A DNA stretch of 35,639 bases from Vulcanisaeta sp. JCM 16161 (GTDB taxonomy: Archaea; Thermoproteota; Thermoprotei; Thermoproteales; Thermocladiaceae), in assembly GCF_001316285.1 (NCBI RefSeq), contig NZ_BBDO01000012.1, positions 1-35,639 of the forward strand. Reading direction: 5' to 3'. Positions 5,780 to 32,855 of this stretch are shown here, piece after piece. The notes under the pieces are model-generated. The model did not search any database, had not been told where the DNA came from, and was given only the letters and a program-made list of their open reading frames with translations. The translations under genes and the position numbers were made by a program. Within the stretch, counting starts at the first letter, position 1. Every line of letters starts with the position of its first letter.

Positions 5780-6980
5780 GTGGATAATTGCGTTGTTGGT
5801 AATAGTATTAGCCTTACGGAGTTAGTGAATAAGTTTGGTACGCCGCTTATTGTTTATGACCTTGGTAGGGTTGAGGAGAATTATAAGGCCATTAAGGAAG
5901 CCACCGGTGCTAGGGTCCTTTACTCAATAAAGGCTAATCCTAACCTGGCAATACTAACCTTTCTGAGGAAGCTTGGTTCGGGCGTGGATGCCGCATCACC
6001 CGGCGAGATATTTCTGGCGTTGAAGGCTGGTTTTGAACCGGGTAATATATTGTATACTGGGGCCTTTCGGTCACTTGACGATATTAAGTACGGCATTGAT
6101 GCGGGGTCCTTTTTAACTTCGATTCGCGGAGAGAATTTGAGAGGGCGTTATCCCTTGGCTACAGGCTAGGACTGTTTTCTTCAGGGTTGATTTGGGCTAT
6201 GGCAGGGGCTTCGTGCCTGGCGTTACATTGGCTGGTGAGGAGAGTAAGTTCGGCATGTTCCTGAACGATGCTATTGATGCGTATAGCCTCGCTAAGTCTA
6301 TTGGTGTTGAGGAGTTCGGTATACACGCTATGATGGGTAGTAATGTGCTTGATGCTGAGTACTTCATTAGGATTGCTGAGTTGCTTAGGGAGCATGCAGA
6401 GTTCATTGAGGATAGGGTTGGCGTTAGGATTAAGTACTTTGACATGGGTGGTGGGTTTGGGATTCCATACAGGCCAGGCGAGAAACCCCTTGACCTAAGT
6501 AAGCTAAGTGTACTTAGAAACTTCTTCCCTGGTGAGTTATGGATTGAGCCTGGTAGGTTCATTGTTGGTGATGCGGGTTATCTAGTCACGAGAGTCACCG
6601 AGGTTAAGAGGAAGGGTAGCAGGACCTTTGTTGGCGTTGATGTTGGCATGAACGTGCTCATTAGGCCCATGCTATACGGCGCGTATCACCACATAATCAC
6701 GTGCGGTGGCGGTGAGGAGCAGGAGGTTGTGGATGTCGTTGGGCCTATTTGCGAGAATACGGATAAATTAGCCATCAATAGGGAGTTGCCAAGGGTTAGG
6801 GAGGGTGACTTACTCATTATCCTTAACGCGGGTGCCTACGTATATTCAATGAGCAGTAATTACAATGGTAGGCCTAGGCCAGCCGAGGTCATCGTTTACA
6901 AGGGTGAGTATGGAATTGCCAGGTTTAGGGAGCCCCTGGACTCACTCATTGCCGGTCAGGTCATTCCCAACTTTATTTAG
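5780..6980 (+). CDS. lysA: Diaminopimelate decarboxylase (two frame breaks)
   Basis: About 400 residues of the fold-III PLP decarboxylase family. LYSIKANPN holds the PLP-binding Lys, and GGGFGIPY and EPGRFIVGDAGYLV the phosphate-binding and hinge regions. GVDVGMNVLIRPMLYGAYH, CENTDKLA and AYVYSMSSNYNGRPRP match LysA more than ornithine or arginine decarboxylases. It would make lysine from meso-diaminopimelate. Breaks near 6104 (a G run) and 6160 (AGGCT for AGGGCT) join DAGVLFNFDSRREFERALSLG to RTVFFRVDLGYGRG. Start is GTG 5780, about 24 bases after a TATA-like acttaaaaatt. Other substrates of the family cannot be excluded. Confidence 0.85.
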
Positions 6981-11327: not shown

Positions 11328-11438
11328 GACACAGCGTTGGTGGTCACCCCCCTTTTTAAGTATTGGTCATTATGATTCTATTTACTTCATTAAGATACAA
11401 CGTAATAACTTAAATAATGCAGTCCAATGTGTAGTGAC
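11328..11438. promoter_or_regulatory. Divergent promoter between mqnE and mqnC
   Basis: About 100 bases separate two divergent menaquinone genes. Read on the minus strand, acttaaaaaggg (about 11349-11360) is a TATA-like box some 25 bases before the mqnE start at 11327. On the plus strand, acttaaataat (11408-11418) is TATA-like. It lies only about 14 bases before ATG 11427 but 26 before the in-frame GTG at 11439, which would fit a leaderless mqnC transcript starting at the GTG. Confidence 0.5.
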
Positions 11439-12526
11439 GTGGATAATAACTGGAGTCCCATTGTTGAGAAGGCTGTTTATGAGGAGCGATTGAGCCCACG
11501 TGATATTGAGGAATTATTTAAGGCCGATCTTTGGGAGCTTGGTTCCGCGGCCGAGTACTTGACAAGGAGGTACTTCGGTAATGTGGTTACCTTCATACCA
11601 AACATGATACTTAATTACACGAATGTTTGCGTGATAGCCTGCAGGTTCTGCGCCTTCTATAGACCGCCTGGGCATCCTGAGGCCTATACGTTGAGTGTTG
11701 AGGAGGCCGTGCATAGGGTTATGGCTGTTGATAGGGAATTCGGTATTAGGCAGGTGTTGATTCAGGGCGGTATAAATCCCGAGTTAGGTATTGAGTATTA
11801 CGAGGATTTATTTAGGGCGTTGAAGGCCAAATTACCCCACGTGGCGATCCATGGACTAAGCCAATAGAGATCGATTACTTAGCGAGGAAGCATAGGATGA
11901 GCTATTCAGAGGTTCTGGATAGGCTTAGGGAGGCTGGTATGGACACGTTAGCCGGCGGTGGTGGTGAAATACTGGTTGATAGGGTGAGGAGGGTCATCGC
12001 GCCCCACAAGATTGATGCCGAGACCTGGCTGAACATAATGGAGACCGCCCATAGGATGGGCATAATGAGTAATGCAACGATGATGTACGGCCACGTAGAG
12101 ACCGTAAGCGACTGGGCCGAGCACCTCTATAGGGTAATTGAGCTTCAGAGGAGGACCCGCGGATTCCTATCGTTCACCGCTTGGAACTTTGAGCCAGGCA
12201 ATAGTGAGTTGACTAGGGAAGTCCCATACCCACTGACCTCAGCCACATTATTGAGGGTGGTCGCCGTGGCGAGGCTCGTGTTTAAGAACGAATTACCCAA
12301 CATACAGTCAAGCTGGCTAACAAACGGTCTCGACGCAGCCCAGCTAGCCCTTAAATTCGGCGCTAATGACTTCGGCGGCACACTGTATGAGGAGAGGGTT
12401 ATACCGGCCACGGGTTTAAAAATGCCGGTGCTAACCAATGCCTCTATTATTAACCTGATTAAAGGCCTTGGATTAGTACCTGCCGAGAGGGATAATTGGT
12501 ACAGAATTATCAAAATATATAACTAG
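11427..12526 (+). CDS. mqnC: MqnC, cyclic dehypoxanthine futalosine synthase (frame break)
   Basis: About 366 residues. NVCVIACRFCAFYR gives the CxxxCxxC radical SAM cluster. QVLIQGGINPELGIEYYEDL, GGGGEILVDRVRRVI, NATMMYGHVET and NFEPGNSELT are MqnC features, as opposed to the MqnE paralogue at 10230-11327. It closes the futalosine ring to the cyclic product used by MqnD. One lost C near 11853 (AGCCAATAG for AGCCCAATAG) creates a false stop; restored, HGLS continues as PIEIDYLARKHRMSYSEV. Start may be ATG 11427 or GTG 11439; the TATA spacing favours the GTG. No hydrolase equivalent to MqnB is in the window. Confidence 0.88.
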
Positions 12527-15171: not shown

Positions 15172-16656
15172 CTAACTCCCATGTCTAATGTCCATATTGT
15201 CCATGTTATCTCGTATACCCTCAGGATACACCTTAGCTATGAAAGATGATAATGCGATAAAAACGGGTATAAACTCTCTCTTAATATGAACAACTGTACG
15301 CATAACTGTCTTTCTTGGCTTAAACTCATATATGTTCAATTGTGCATTAATCCCAAACTTCTTGCCAATGTTCACAACATTGTATATGAAGTCCTTAAGA
15401 ACTGCGCCCTTTGAACGTGTAGTGGCTTGTATATAATAGCCATTTCTCCCATGCTCTATCTTAAACGTGTAATTTTTATAAAATATGTATATATTATAAT
15501 CATTGATTATGGAATTAACCAGATTTTGCACCCTATAATGATTCAAAATTAAAAAGATAATTTTAGAATTGTCAAGAGACAGTATGTAGGTAAGGAAATC
15601 CTTAGCGAATTTCTTAGAATACTCATGTGTGAGGATTACGGAATTAACATTGGATACATTTACAGTTTTATAATTCATTTGTTCGAGCATAGACCTAAAT
15701 TTATTGGATAACGGCTCGTTATTAATAAATGCATGTAATGAAAAACCGACTAAATGCTTCTTATTGTTGAATATCCCGTCACCCATAAAAATCCCAACAT
15801 TGTAATATGCCTTAAAATTAATCGGTTCATCATTACTGATAATCTTGATAAATGCATTCAACTTATTTAAGAAATCGAAATTCACCAGCGTAACATCAAA
15901 GTAAGTATCGTATTTCACGCTCAACATCTCATCTTCCTTCTCATTGTTAATATTTATGCGATTAGCTATAACGCGGAGAGTAACCGGTCTTTGAGCTATA
16001 GCGCTAATTAATCCTGCTACTAATGCATGAATTTCTGTCTCTGTATTGGAAATGAGGAATTTATCGTAATGTCTACTGCCATCAGTTGCCAATAAACCGG
16101 CTAATATTTTCCTAAAGTTGGGATCATACGTAATTTTATCATGTATATTAACATAAAATGAGATCGCGGGCATATTAATTGCGAAAGAAATAGATGGTTT
16201 AATGGTACGGTTTAGTTCTATGGTTATATACGCATTTCCTGCCTTCTCGCTATTCGGAAATAATACGTGAAGGGCTCTACTTGTATTATTAACCTTTTTT
16301 TTATCATGTAGTTATTGCTTAACAAACTTTGCTTAATACCTGGTAACATCGTATGAACAGTATATCCCTTGATTGTACTATCGAGCGACTTAAGGAAGTT
16401 GTAATATTCAAGAACATCGTTGACTACTAACGCTTTATTCGGCGCCACTTTATTAACATATTCGTATGGATTTACATTCGATAAATTTTCATATTGTGGA
16501 TTATCAAGCACAAAATTAATCCTTCTTAACAATTCTTTTTTTAACAAATTCCATTATCTCGCTCTCAGACATTTTCTCATACCAGTAACTCATCAAATAA
16601 GATAATTCTACAGGGTTTAAAAATGCGTTAAACCGTGAACCTTGTTCAGAAATCAT
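15172..16656 (-). CDS. LAGLIDADG-like protein with unknown N-terminal domain (two frame breaks)
   Basis: About 494 residues after joining frames at an A7 run near 16545 and at TTTCCG near 16262. Residues about 1-190 (MISEQGSRFNAFLNPVELSY onward) match nothing I recognise. Then RKILAGLLATDGS and, some 110 residues later, YYNVGIFMGDGIFNNKK, look like the paired LAGLIDADG helices of a two-domain homing endonuclease, each with a terminal acidic residue. The C-terminal half is rich in Asn, Ile and Lys, and the gene is more AT-rich than its neighbours, which suggests transfer. The reading frame continues upstream past a TAG (AKRRDKLEV), so the start may be lost. Alternatives are a Thermoproteales-specific repeat family such as PaREP2. 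Function is not established. Confidence 0.45.
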
Positions 16657-19596: not shown

Positions 19597-19751
19597 CGTA
19601 TATCCAACCCTTTACTAAGTTATTAAGTGCGATCCCAATTTACTCAAATTATTTGCGTCAAGGCATATATAATGAATATAGTGGTAATGATCAAGCAATA
19701 GTGAACAGAGGGGCATTACTATTTAAGGCCTTTTTCGAATACTATGGGATT

Positions 19752-20965
19752 ATGAGAGGAGTTGCAATTGTTGGGGTTGGTCATGCGAAGTTTGGGCGTA
19801 GGACTGACACAAACCTAGGCGAGCTTGCCTGGGAGGCTGTTAAGGAGGCCCTTGAGGATTCAAGGCTTGATCAGAAGGATATTCAGTACTTCGTCGTTGG
19901 TAACGCAGGTGGTTGGAGTGCCGAGCCGTTACCGGCCGTGGTCGTTGGCGAGTACTGCGGTTTAAATCCCAGGGGTGCCATGAGGGTTGAGGCAGCCTGC
20001 GCATCGGGTAGTGCCGCACTTTACAATGCCTATTTAGCCGTGGCCTCAGGAATGGCGGACATAGCCATGGCAATAGGCGTTGAGAAGATGTACGAGTCGC
20101 CAACGCCAACGGTCGTCGAATTCATTGGTAGGGCTGGTAATTACTTCTGGGAGTTTGAGAACTTTGGATTGACGTTCCCAGGTTATTACGCACTCTACAT
20201 GACCGCGTACATGAATAGGTTTGGAGCCACTGAGGAGGACTTCTGCAGGGTAGCCGTTAAGAACCATTATTACGGCTCAATGAACCAAAGGCCCAGTTCT
20301 ACGGCGTGAGGATAACTATTGATCAATGCCTCAAGTCCAGGTACGTGGCCTGGCCGATAAAGCTCTACGACTCAAGCCCAATAACCGATGGGGCTGCCGC
20401 CGTGATACTCGCCAGTGAGGATTTGGCTAGGAAGATAACGGACACGCCGGTGTGGATTAGGTCCGTGGGTGTGGCGACAGGTACTGCAAACCTAAGTAAG
20501 AGGTCTGACTTCATAGGATTGGATGCGGCATACCAAGCCGCCGAACAGGCATTTAAGAGGATTGGGATTGAGCATAGGGATACGTGGAAGTATTTCGATG
20601 TTGCTGACGTTCATGACTGCTTCACAATAGCTGAGGTGATGGCGTATGAGGACTTGGGCTTTGTGGAGAGGGGCATGGGTATTCAACTGGTTAGGAATGA
20701 ACAGACATACAAGGGTGGTTTAATACCAGTTAACCTGGATGGTGGCCTTAAGGCGAAGGGCCATCCCATAGGGGCTACGGGGGTTAGTATGGCTGTTGAG
20801 ATGACTAAGCAGTTGAGACAGAGTGTTGAGCCTAGGGATAGGCAGGCCGACATCTATACTGGCTGGGCCTTGGCGCATAACGTCGGTGGTACTGGCCATT
20901 ACGCCTATGTAACCATATACTCACTTGATAAGGATGGTTCACCGAAGGCGAAGCCCAAGAGGTGA
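19752..20965 (+). CDS. Thiolase, acetyl-CoA acyltransferase family (frame break)
   Basis: About 404 residues. MRGVAIVGVGHAKFGRRTDT is the start; the longer upstream frame to 19653 shows no family features. Catalytic Cys is in AACASGSAAL, His in HDCFTIAEVMAYEDLG and the second His in GHPIGATGVS. One C lost near 20285 (AACCAAAGG for AACCCAAAGG) is restored to NHYYGSMNPKAQFYG. The chain resembles the SCP-x thiolase type. The next gene, a DUF35 zinc-ribbon protein, overlaps it, as is typical of archaeal thiolases. It would cleave or make acetoacetyl- or 3-ketoacyl-CoA. Confidence 0.87.
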
Positions 20966-30597: not shown

Positions 30598-30634
30598 TCT
30601 GGTAGTAGTACCAGTTACTGGTAGTGGTACCAGT
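30598..30634 (+). promoter_or_regulatory. Palindromic ACTGGT/ACCAGT array at the start of ATPase 1
   Basis: Half-sites tCTGGT (30598-30603), ACCAGT (30610-30615), ACTGGT (30617-30622) and ACCAGT (30629-30634) alternate in orientation, with six-base gaps and one central T at 30616. Arms match at 14 of 17 positions around that centre. The array overlaps the GTG start region of the ATPase (30624/30633). A TATA-like tatttaatta lies upstream at about 30586-30595. The same layout lies at the start of the second ATPase. Confidence 0.65.
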
Positions 30635-31740
30635 GCTTTTCGACTTAAAGCCGAAGGACCGCATTGAGGAGTTATACGATTTCAGGGACGAACTTAATAA
30701 ATTACTCGCATGCTATAGATGGTAGGATTGCGTTAATACTAGGCCTTAGAAGGATGGGTAAATCAAGTCTGTTGAGGAGTTTTCTAAATAGTTATAATAT
30801 ACCGCACATACTGATTGATGCCAGGAGGATTATACTTAATGAGGGAGGTATGAGTATTAGAGGCTTCATGAACGAGCTCTCCCAATCATTGACCAACTTC
30901 CTACAGCAGAGGGCCAGCTTTAGAGATAAATTAATAGGTTTATTACGTAATATCGATGGTATTTCAATAGGTGTGCAACCCCTAAGTATATCTATTTCCT
31001 GGCGTAGGGGTAGGGCTGTACTTACATCACTATTGGAGGCTGTGAATAGGGTTGCCGAGGACCTAAACATAAAGGTTGTGTTGGCTATCGATGAGGTTCA
31101 GGAGTTGAGGGCGCTGGGCCTGAACATACCCATGCTTCTGGCGTATATTTACGATAACTTGGGCAATATTGTAGCCATATTGACTGGATCTCAGGTGGGC
31201 ATGGTTTACGACACGTTGAGGCTTAATGACCCTAAATCACCGCTCTACGGTAGAGCAGTGGTTGAGGTGAAACTTAGGAGACTTAGTCCCGATGAGTCCC
31301 TGGACTTCCTAAGGAGGGGCTTTGAGCAGTATGGGGTCCAGGTTGGCGATGATGTTATTAGGGAGGCTGCGAGCAGGCTAGATGGCATAATTGGATGGTT
31401 AACGTTGTTTGGTTGGTATTATGTGCATGGTAATAGGGATCTAAACTCCATAATTGATGTGGCTGCTAGGCAGGAAATTGAGGAATTGAAATCATTCCTG
31501 ACCAAGTCAAGGGCTGAGAATAGGTATAAGGTGATACTGAGGATCGTTGCCGAGAAGCCGAGGAGGTGGTCTGAGATAAAGAGGGCTGTGGAGATGGAGG
31601 AGGGTGTCATTGTGAACGACCGTAATTTCACGGATTTATTAAGGCATTTAATTAATATGGGTATACTTGAGAAGCAGGGCGATGCGTATAAAATAGCAGA
31701 CCCTGTACTTGAGTACGGCGTTAGGAAGTACCTGAGATAA
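30624..31740 (+). CDS. Archaeal ATPase with C-terminal helix-turn-helix, first of a pair (frame break)
   Basis: About 372 residues. The GTG start at 30624 gives VVPVLFDLKPKDRIEELYDF, and a frame change near 30718 leads to GRIALILGLRRMGKSSLLRSF, the Walker A motif. VVLAIDEVQEL is Walker B and LTGSQ sensor 1. The C-terminal part (PRRWSEIKRAVEMEEGVIVN) is a winged helix. This is the 'ATPase predominantly from Archaea' (STAND-like) group. The N-terminus aligns with that of the second ATPase (VVPV-LFDLKPK with MPPV-KFFDTRPK), so the start before the palindrome's last arm is favoured. Function unknown; such ATPases are multiplied in crenarchaea. Confidence 0.82.
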
Positions 31741-31823
31741 TTATGTTAATTTTTGAGGGTGCACTTAATCATTGTATTGAGACTTGAGTTGAAGAATTGA
31801 TTGTGGTTACGGTTACGTAAGGT

Positions 31824-31830
31824 ATATAAA
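31824..31830 (+). promoter_or_regulatory. TATA box of ATPase 2
   Basis: atataaa at 31824-31830, within ggtatataaaactgg, is a strong archaeal TATA box. It is about 28 bases before the ATG at 31855 and directly abuts the 39-base palindrome. Confidence 0.65.
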
Positions 31831-31867
31831 ACTGGTGGCATACCAGTAACTGGTATGCCACCAGTTT
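31829..31867 (+). promoter_or_regulatory. Perfect 39-base palindrome at the start of ATPase 2
   Basis: The arm aaactggtggcataccagt (31829-31847) and its exact reverse complement (31849-31867) flank one central base at 31848. Inside are four ACTGGT/ACCAGT half-sites in alternating order with five-base gaps. It starts at the end of the TATA box and covers the expected transcription start and the ATG (31855), the position of a repressor operator. A hairpin or recombination site is also possible. Confidence 0.75.
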
Positions 31868-32855
31868 CCTGTAAATTCTTCGATACTCGACCTAAGGTTA
31901 GTAGGGATGCCGTGTTTGGTAGGGATGACGTGATTAATGAAATTGAACGCTTATTGAACAATGGCTTTTGGCCTGTTATTCTCGGTCCCAAGAGGATTGG
32001 TAAGACTACGGTTATGAGGGTTGTGATTAATGAGCTTGGTGGAATATATATTGATGCATCGACAATAACGGGGCTTAAGGGCCTTGGACTTAGGCTTATC
32101 AATGAGATTAAGAGATTAAACATTAAGGTTAGGCTTAACCTAGCCGTGCTTCAATTGGATATTGAAAGAAGGCCTACGATAACTATCGAGGGATTAATTA
32201 AGGAGTTAGGTGATGTAGTTATTGGTATTGATGAGGTTCAGAACATAATTAGTCCAAAACTCCCTGCGCTTCTTTCCGTGGCTTATAATGAGTCTAGGGT
32301 CAGGTTTGTATTTAGTGGCTCATTAATTGGTACCACGCGGTTAATAATGAGGAGTCCCGAGTCCTTGGGTAGACCGTTGATTAGGTTTGAGCTTAAGCCC
32401 TTCACTAGGGAACAGTCCATGGAGTTTCTGAGGGTTGGTTCAAGGGAATGTGGTATCGGCATCAGCGATACCGAGATTGAGGATGCCGTAAGTGAGTTCG
32501 ACGGTATTGTTGGTTGGTTAACGTACTATGGAAGCCTTAGATCAAGTGGCAAAGATCATTTAGAGGCCATGAAGGCCTAAGGGGTATTGCCAGGGAGGTT
32601 ATTAAGGAAGAATTGAGTAGGTTAGGGAAGTATGAATTGGTAATTTATAGGGCATTGGCTACGTTGGGTAAGGCTAGATGGGTTGATATCAAGAGACTTA
32701 CTGAATACCTAATCGGCCACTCAATAGATGATAAGACGTTCAGCACGAGCCTAAAGACCCTGGTTAATATGTACATGATTAGGGAGGTTGGGCGAGGTAT
32801 TTACGAGGTTATTGATGAATATATGGCTAAGCTGGTCCGTGAATACGGCGTTTAA
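31855..32855 (+). CDS. Archaeal ATPase, second of a pair (frame break)
   Basis: About 334 residues, paralogue of the ATPase at 30624-31740. ATG 31855 gives MPPVSCKFFDTRPKVSRDAV. Walker A is ILGPKRIGKTTVM, Walker B VVIGIDEVQNI and sensor 1 FSGS. Near 32577 one C lost (GGCCTAAGG for GGCCCTAAGG) hides the link to LRGIAREVIKEELSRLGKYE; the C-terminal winged helix (LGKARWVDIKRLTEYL) is in the next frame. Its extra N-terminal reading (31801 onward) is merely translation of the palindrome. It differs from ATPase 1 in length of the linker and in the sensor region. Function unknown. Confidence 0.8.

Follow-up and report, generated by a model that had tools for sequence, protein, structure and literature searches.

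Introduction

C proteins are small helix-turn-helix proteins that control restriction-modification systems. C.Csp231I is described as having two CTAAG-n5-CTTAG repeats and an apparently leaderless transcript (PMC4824078). The C-boxes of restriction-modification controllers fall into classes that differ in their letters, and C proteins with a similar operator plan are activators at low level and turn into repressors at high level (PMC4824078).

The ATPases considered here belong to a different group, that of the archaeal AAA+ ATPases SSO1545 (PDB 2fna; profile E-value 3e-113) and PABY2304 (PDB 2qen; 6e-97), and the profile matches to both extend over the full length, winged helix included. PDB 2fna carries the annotation "Conserved hypothetical protein," and passages of PMC5760070 and PMC4599002 cite SSO1545. 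We found no description of a self-recognised operator or a tandem-dyad element in the literature searched, which lay mostly outside subscription papers.

Here we analyze a stretch of 35,639 nt from a Vulcanisaeta contig (the window), in which a sequence-only reading had proposed a repressor or autoregulator site at the start of an ATPase gene. Our results support extending that guess to a whole family of putatively self-recognised operators with a partly readable recognition code.

A perfect palindrome at the start of an ATPase gene

The proposed site is a perfect palindrome of 39 nt. Its arms, of 19 nt each (31829-31847 and 31849-31867), are 100% complementary and separated by a 1-nt gap, and it carries four ACTGGT half-sites on a TATA box and a start codon, exactly as had been described. 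When inverted repeats with arms of at least 12 nt and a distance of at most 60 were listed, it was the sole 100% complementary one among the six in the window. A gap-1 perfect repeat with 19-nt arms is expected about 1.6e-7 times in 35,639 nt; the palindrome is therefore not a chance event, and the earlier judgement that it was very unlikely to be one holds. Searches of the window for tRNAs and Rfam families gave 0 matches. The ATG of this downstream ATPase lies 32 nt past the first base of the TATA box, so its transcript is probably leaderless. Features of the locus are collected in Table 1.

Table 1. Features of the two ATPase genes and their candidate operators in the window.
Feature	Position	Strand	Basis or remark
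Tandem-dyad operator of upstream ATPase, CTGGT-AGTAGT-ACCAGT-t-ACTGGT-AGTGGT-ACCAGT	30599..30634	.	Sequence
Likely GTG start of upstream ATPase, on the border of dyad 2	30633..30635	+	Comparison with family starts
Long open frame of upstream ATPase	30664..31740	+	PF01637 40 bits, MCM_C winged helix 46 bits
Asn318-Asp319 codons, start of recognition helix of upstream ATPase	31615..31620	+	Structure model
TATA box TATATAA, abutting dyad 1	31823..31829	+	Sequence; A+T-rich at this place in 110 distinct operators
Whole candidate operator, 39-nt perfect palindrome	31829..31867	.	Repeat search and orthologues
Dyad 1, ACTGGT-GGCAT-ACCAGT	31831..31847	.	Between TATA box and expected transcription start
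Dyad 2, ACTGGT-ATGCC-ACCAGT	31849..31865	.	Spans expected transcription start and start codon
ATG of downstream (second) ATPase, within dyad 2	31855..31857	+	Sequence
ATPase domain PF01637 of downstream ATPase, 57.5 bits	31855..32580	+	Frame interrupted after domain
C-terminal winged helix of downstream ATPase, MCM_C-like, 19.7 bits (cut-off 27 not reached)	32613..32855	+	
Asp-Asp codons (IDDKTF), start of recognition helix of downstream ATPase	32727..32732	+	Sequence

Just upstream lies the other ATPase gene of the window, which also has tandem dyads at its start, a feature absent from the sequence-only reading of the palindrome. From its GTG it reads LFDLKPK, with the frame broken further on. 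Both proteins exceed the PF01637 cut-off of 33.2; against the MCM_C cut-off of 27, the upstream ATPase scores above and the downstream ATPase below. In the structure model of the upstream ATPase (mean pLDDT 92.6), the winged helix comprises three helices plus a wing. The third helix begins with residue 319, extends to residue 331, and leads into the wing. In fold, this model matches 2fna and 2qen best, with a TM score of 0.83 to 2fna over 350 columns at 33% identity.

Two other observations concern reading frames in the window. Genes at 1266-2677, 11427-12526, 19653-20965, and elsewhere are split into adjacent open frames, as are both ATPases. The splits look like frequent small insertions or deletions of the assembly, and the broken ATPase frames may reflect sequencing errors rather than decay. 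On the reverse strand, a 333-aa frame at 15172-16173 contains ILAGLLATDG, which we take to resemble the LAGLIDADG homing endonuclease motif.

The conserved unit is a pair of dyads

A contig scan of genomes yielded six relatives, four of them in Vulcanisaeta. Close protein matches (76-91% identity) are present in G001, G002, G003, G010, G021, and G022, along with fragments in G004; in G003 the gene is in pieces. The tandem pattern ACTGGT-N5-ACCAGT was found at exactly one locus in each of six genomes out of the 25 of the same family that were searched, and all six belong to the seven genomes in which the protein has a close match. In the seventh, G004, only a single dyad accompanies a rearranged copy. 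There, at 7980-8805 of L006 (V. distributa JCM 11216), the sequence starts like the upstream ATPase and then runs on into fragments of the downstream ATPase, which makes the locus a rearranged or hybrid copy with one dyad. An additional orthologue, in G081, has the dyad pair.

Across seven orthologues, six of which had been picked by the tandem pattern itself, the six-letter arms are identical except for one edge base and show no synonymous change, whereas the five-base spacers vary. Fully complementary N5 spacers occur in the window and in one of the seven. Because the arms are kept while the spacers vary, the dyad pair is what is conserved, and perfect symmetry over all 39 bases is a secondary or incidental matter. 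The conserved unit is two tandem 17-bp dyads, ACTGGT-N5-ACCAGT, one base apart and situated between the TATA box and the start codon. The pair is retained across relatives, while full palindromy is mostly lost in the orthologues. We rejected the perfect 39 nt as a functional unit, since only the window and one of seven orthologues hold it.

Several palindromic regions deserve separate mention. In the window (31829-31867), L147, and L190, the spacers are complementary as well, so that the whole pair forms one perfect palindrome; templated correction through a hairpin is a possible origin. In a Sulfolobaceae metagenome-assembled genome (L003), a single palindrome (AGCTATATTAGTAACTAATAT...) sits at an ATPase start, with a second copy about 110 bp upstream (approximately 6355-6375 and 6464-6484). 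The palindromic region at the ATPase start of L164 (G009) contains a run of N.

Tandem dyads recur across the ATPase family

The same tandem-dyad plan, written in paralogue-specific letters, precedes many genes for AAA+ ATPases with a C-terminal winged helix. These family genes encode PF01637 ATPases, most of which end in a winged helix akin to MCM_C, and some draft Vulcanisaeta genomes have about twenty profile matches, fragments included, among the matches listed. Half-sites of paralogues in closed and draft genomes include ACTTCC, ACTAAC, AGTTCC, AGTATC, ATTTGG, ACTGCT, and ACTGGG.

The first sample consisted of 76 genes that an LFD-type start motif placed within 100 fetched regions. A tandem-dyad score of at least 20 was reached in 45 of the 76 upstream windows, compared to 4 of 1500 dinucleotide shuffles and 0 of 659 control windows; the last figure rules out that dyads are a general property of sequence in these regions. 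When the gap was held to exactly one base and the score to at least 18, 51 of 75 genes have the element and 24 lack the strict form. In the wider class, which takes in other families and where at least 55 of 81 genomes contain the family among the matches listed, a scan allowing gaps of 0-2 reached 18 or more in 37 of the 57 genes scanned next, with 20 below. Two other classes contain the family in at least 113 of 229 and at least 21 of 400 genomes, again among the matches listed; there, 31 of 49 scanned genes have the strict tandem form and 18 do not. In all of these classes, the genes scanned were a fetched subset of the family matches. Tandem-dyad operators therefore occur in genomes of three classes. 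The sequence-only reading had named absence of the motif upstream of homologous ATPases as the outcome that would speak against it; the counts of 51/75, 31/49, and, in the slightly looser scan, 37/57 go the other way.

Genes without the strict form are varied. Some have an inner palindrome only (for example L260 and L267-L274), some have a two-base gap, and some, such as the second gene of L181, have nothing legible. A two-base instead of a one-base gap between the dyads is seen in several genes of the class to which G005 belongs (L275-L290, L308). No convincing element appeared in a 290-nt stretch at nine classical PF01637 ATPases from these genomes (L096-L104): their best scores, 11-18, are scattered, and the top score of 18 belongs to L097, 22 bases ahead of the Pfam match.

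Operator geometry

We compiled 110 distinct strict operators. The five bases preceding dyad 1 are 80-95% A+T and thus TATA-like, and the centers of the two dyads are 17-22 bp apart (mode 19). The codon preceding LFD is ATG, GTG, or TTG in 80 of the 110, and in most it begins within a few bases of the end of dyad 2, on either side. In archaea, transcription begins at a usual distance from the TATA box, and repressors usually act between the TATA box and the start codon. Applied here, that distance would put dyad 1 between the TATA box and the transcription start and dyad 2 over the start, which is the position of a repressor.

Some starts depart from this pattern. The expected position holds ATA in L147 (1-2052, G010), ACG in L171 (G018), and CTG in 4 of 110; these may be unusual start codons on leaderless transcripts, or decay. 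In L107, L176, L198, L222, and others, dyad 2 has a GGGG-rich central spacer a few bases ahead of the start codon. This spacer resembles a ribosome-binding site, and the operator may double as an element of translation.

The geometry also bears on what the frame through the palindrome means. It is open in the window, and one could read the element as an N-terminal coding repeat (TGGIPVTGMPPV) whose symmetry is a by-product; the sequence-only reading had likewise considered a longer translated start. An in-frame stop interrupts 64 of the 110 distinct operators, however, and dyad lengths of 16-21 shift the reading frame between paralogues. The arms, moreover, are the same in seven orthologues bar the one edge base and show no synonymous differences. 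On the strength of the stops we rejected the coding repeat, which is extremely improbable. The longer start fares no better: to the same stops is added the orthologue L127, its gene itself in pieces, in which the number of bases between the dyads differs.

Operator letters follow the recognition helix

The automatic finder of inner palindromes gave wrong registers in many genes, so we copied operators by hand. This was possible for 86 full-length genes out of 132; the 46 left out comprise 27 proteins shorter than 310 aa and 19 long ones whose operator was illegible or ambiguous. For 50 proteins the end of the sequence was visible before operator curation, and only the new-gene test described below was blind to the derivation of the code. 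Removing relatives above 70% identity reduced the 86 genes to 59. In these, operator similarity correlates with winged-helix identity when the ATPase domain is controlled for (partial rho 0.264, p 0.0005); the converse correlation, with ATPase-domain identity and the winged helix controlled for, is 0.015 (p 0.39). A smaller, automatic set points in the same direction (0.21, p 0.004).

We then related each half-site base to the 358 consensus columns of the protein. No column predicts base 2 as well as column 319 does (z 15, next 7.8); for base 4 (z 11.9, next 8.2) and base 5 (z 9.8, next 8.5), column 318 comes first. In the structure model of the window's upstream ATPase, these two columns form the start of the recognition helix. 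Bases 1 and 3 are nearly invariant. Base 6 is at odds with a simple code, since the columns that predict it best belong to the ATPase domain.

The clearest association is that of Asp319 with C at base 2 (ACT...); other residues go mostly with G or T (AGT..., ATT...). Its phi is 0.93, compared to 0.62 for the next best column. The rule holds in 110 of 114 genes, the exceptions being L123 and L326 (Asp-Ser), L314 (Ser-Pro), and L161 (Gly-Asp). Across the family, an Asp-Asp pair at the start of the recognition helix, as in the window's downstream ATPase, goes with ACTGG half-sites. Asp at residue 318 accompanies G-G at bases 4-5 in 17 of 18 cases.

Shared ancestry was addressed with a quick tree of the ATPase domain only, built without a mixture model, from which L271 (gap at column 319) and L281 (operator misdetected; scored as a miss in the new-gene test) were dropped. 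On this tree base 2 changes 15 times and the Asp/non-Asp state also changes 15 times. Of 8 independent supported pairs, about 7.8 agree and 0 oppose (p 0.0078). For residue 318 the same comparison gave 4.2 of 7 pairs, which is not significant (p 0.125).

The new-gene test covered 60 loci of the two other classes, with operators called by script: 11 had no start motif, 49 were scanned, and 31 had a strict operator. Asp was paired with C in 16 of 16 genes. The 15 non-Asp genes had 9 G, 2 T, 3 C, and 1 undecided, that is, non-C in 11 of the 14 decidable; for at least 3 of the 31 (L281, L305, L306) the script seems to have set the operator in the wrong place. Of the 18 genes below threshold, 4 followed the rule in the automatic register, 8 went against it, and 6 gave no decision, and many of these genes have a two-base gap between the dyads. 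A post hoc rescan of the 18 with gaps of 0-3 paired Asp with C in 9 of 10, while the 8 non-Asp genes gave 5 non-C, 2 C (the Ser genes L277 and L308, mostly C), and 1 tie.

Because the key operator letter follows the first recognition-helix residue of the gene's own protein, each ATPase is very probably the protein that binds and controls the gene encoding it. The proposal of a repressor or autoregulator site is thereby strengthened, with binding as the prediction.

Two other readings must contend with the same association. The dyads could work in RNA, as tandem leader hairpins acting on translation or on the stability of the mRNA. In many paralogues dyad 2 probably forms part of the transcript, and it often has a G-rich, ribosome-binding-site-like spacer near the start codon, which suits such hairpins. 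Dyad 1, however, has the same letters and should stay untranscribed, lying as it does between the TATA box and the expected start; in the window's subfamily the start codon itself is inside dyad 2; and base identity tracks a protein residue, for which RNA pairing has no need. We consider action in RNA very unlikely. Alternatively, the sites could be recognised by a different DNA-binding protein, such as a general regulator of the family, since binding of the ATPase to its operators is a prediction. A general regulator would need one sequence, and the letters differ among paralogues of a single genome, each tracking its own recognition helix. This counts against another protein, to which we give very little credence.

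Search for targets beyond the ATPase genes

We searched genomes for further copies of two operator sequences. A search of ten genomes with ACTTCYRGGGGYRGAAG found 15 sites in 9 of them, 14 at starts of family members. The fifteenth (G287, L346) precedes a sequence that, judged by eye, resembles a broken family start; the motif script set no start anchor there. With ACTGGT-N5-ACCAG, searched in 12 genomes, sites lie at the ATPase in seven, plus the rearranged copy in G004, and two complete dyads occur in G007, a genome without a close orthologue. Elsewhere this pattern had 13 one-strand matches, compared to 7 for a reversed control pattern. Since the sites of both operators are found mainly at ATPase genes, no clear regulon beyond the own gene emerges for these two sequences in the ten and 12 genomes.

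A model of autoregulation

The architecture of the operators, their wide presence in the family, and the co-variation of residue and base come directly from computation. From them we infer binding, oligomeric state, repression over activation, and a nucleotide switch. On the sequence evidence, we think it highly probable that each ATPase docks its winged helix on the tandem dyads of its own promoter and represses transcription there; the dyads would then be an autoregulatory operator. Several winged-helix copies of the ATPase would occupy the two dyads, one on each half-site. Bound in this way, the ATPase would cover the promoter from TATA box through start codon, block assembly of the transcription complex, and so limit its own synthesis. 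Binding of ATP or a ligand by the ATPase domain may set the affinity for the operator. Most of the specificity would come from the residue that opens the recognition helix, with Asp selecting C and Ser, Asn, Lys, or Pro mostly G or T; the preceding residue, 318, probably helps, its Asp going with G-G at bases 4-5.

The sign of the control could be the reverse: the ATPase might bind its operator and activate the promoter, or use the site as a landing place for a role outside transcription. C proteins with a similar operator plan do activate at low level, and they repress at high level (PMC4824078). The sites considered here, however, lie between the TATA box and the start codon, not upstream of the TATA box, and we regard activation or a landing site as rather unlikely.

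A broader reading is plausible, at slightly less than an even chance. SSO1545-type ATPases would form a large archaeal family of self-addressed switches, each with its own promoter as the only or main specific chromosomal site. A one- or two-residue code, diversifying together with the operators, would keep paralogues separate. The ATPase cycle, perhaps triggered by an invader or by stress as in STAND proteins, would release the promoter and let the protein accumulate.

Should this be right, the family would provide an unusually large natural set of matched winged-helix/operator pairs. In any case, a widespread archaeal ATPase family with a solved structure gains a concrete molecular role, since its members very probably bind DNA and regulate their own genes. 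The operator-helix pairs form a natural data set on how a winged helix chooses DNA letters, with Asp to C as a simple rule, and this rule may allow operators to be predicted from protein sequences and vice versa. The code also points to a way in which many paralogues could share a cell without regulating one another.

Comparison with known systems

The closest structural relative offers a prediction. L294, a family member that matches 2fna closely (579.8 bits), carries ACTTCTGGGGGTAGAAGT twice at its start, both copies perfect and separated by one base, between a T-rich, TATA-like stretch and a GTG. Because 2fna has Ser-Asp at positions 318/319, its own operator is predicted to be of the ACTTC type.

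More distant fold matches of the upstream-ATPase model share the AAA+ domain: the initiators Cdc6/Orc1, the STAND-type protein Avs3, and a maltose-system entry whose chain we take to be MalT, also of the STAND type. Cdc6/Orc1 also has a winged helix. Sequence identity in these fold matches is 10-16%. A further difference from Cdc6/Orc1 and STAND-type proteins is that the two ATPase operators searched occur mainly at the ATPase genes themselves.

In function, the nearest parallel is the C-box of restriction-modification controllers. C-boxes are inverted repeats on the regulator's own promoter (PMC4824078), and the ATPase genes likewise have two tandem inverted repeats on their own promoters. 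The proteins differ: C proteins are tied to a restriction system, whereas the regulator proposed here is archaeal and a full AAA+ ATPase with a winged helix instead of a small helix-turn-helix protein. Given that build, the ATPase may work like a C protein without being one.
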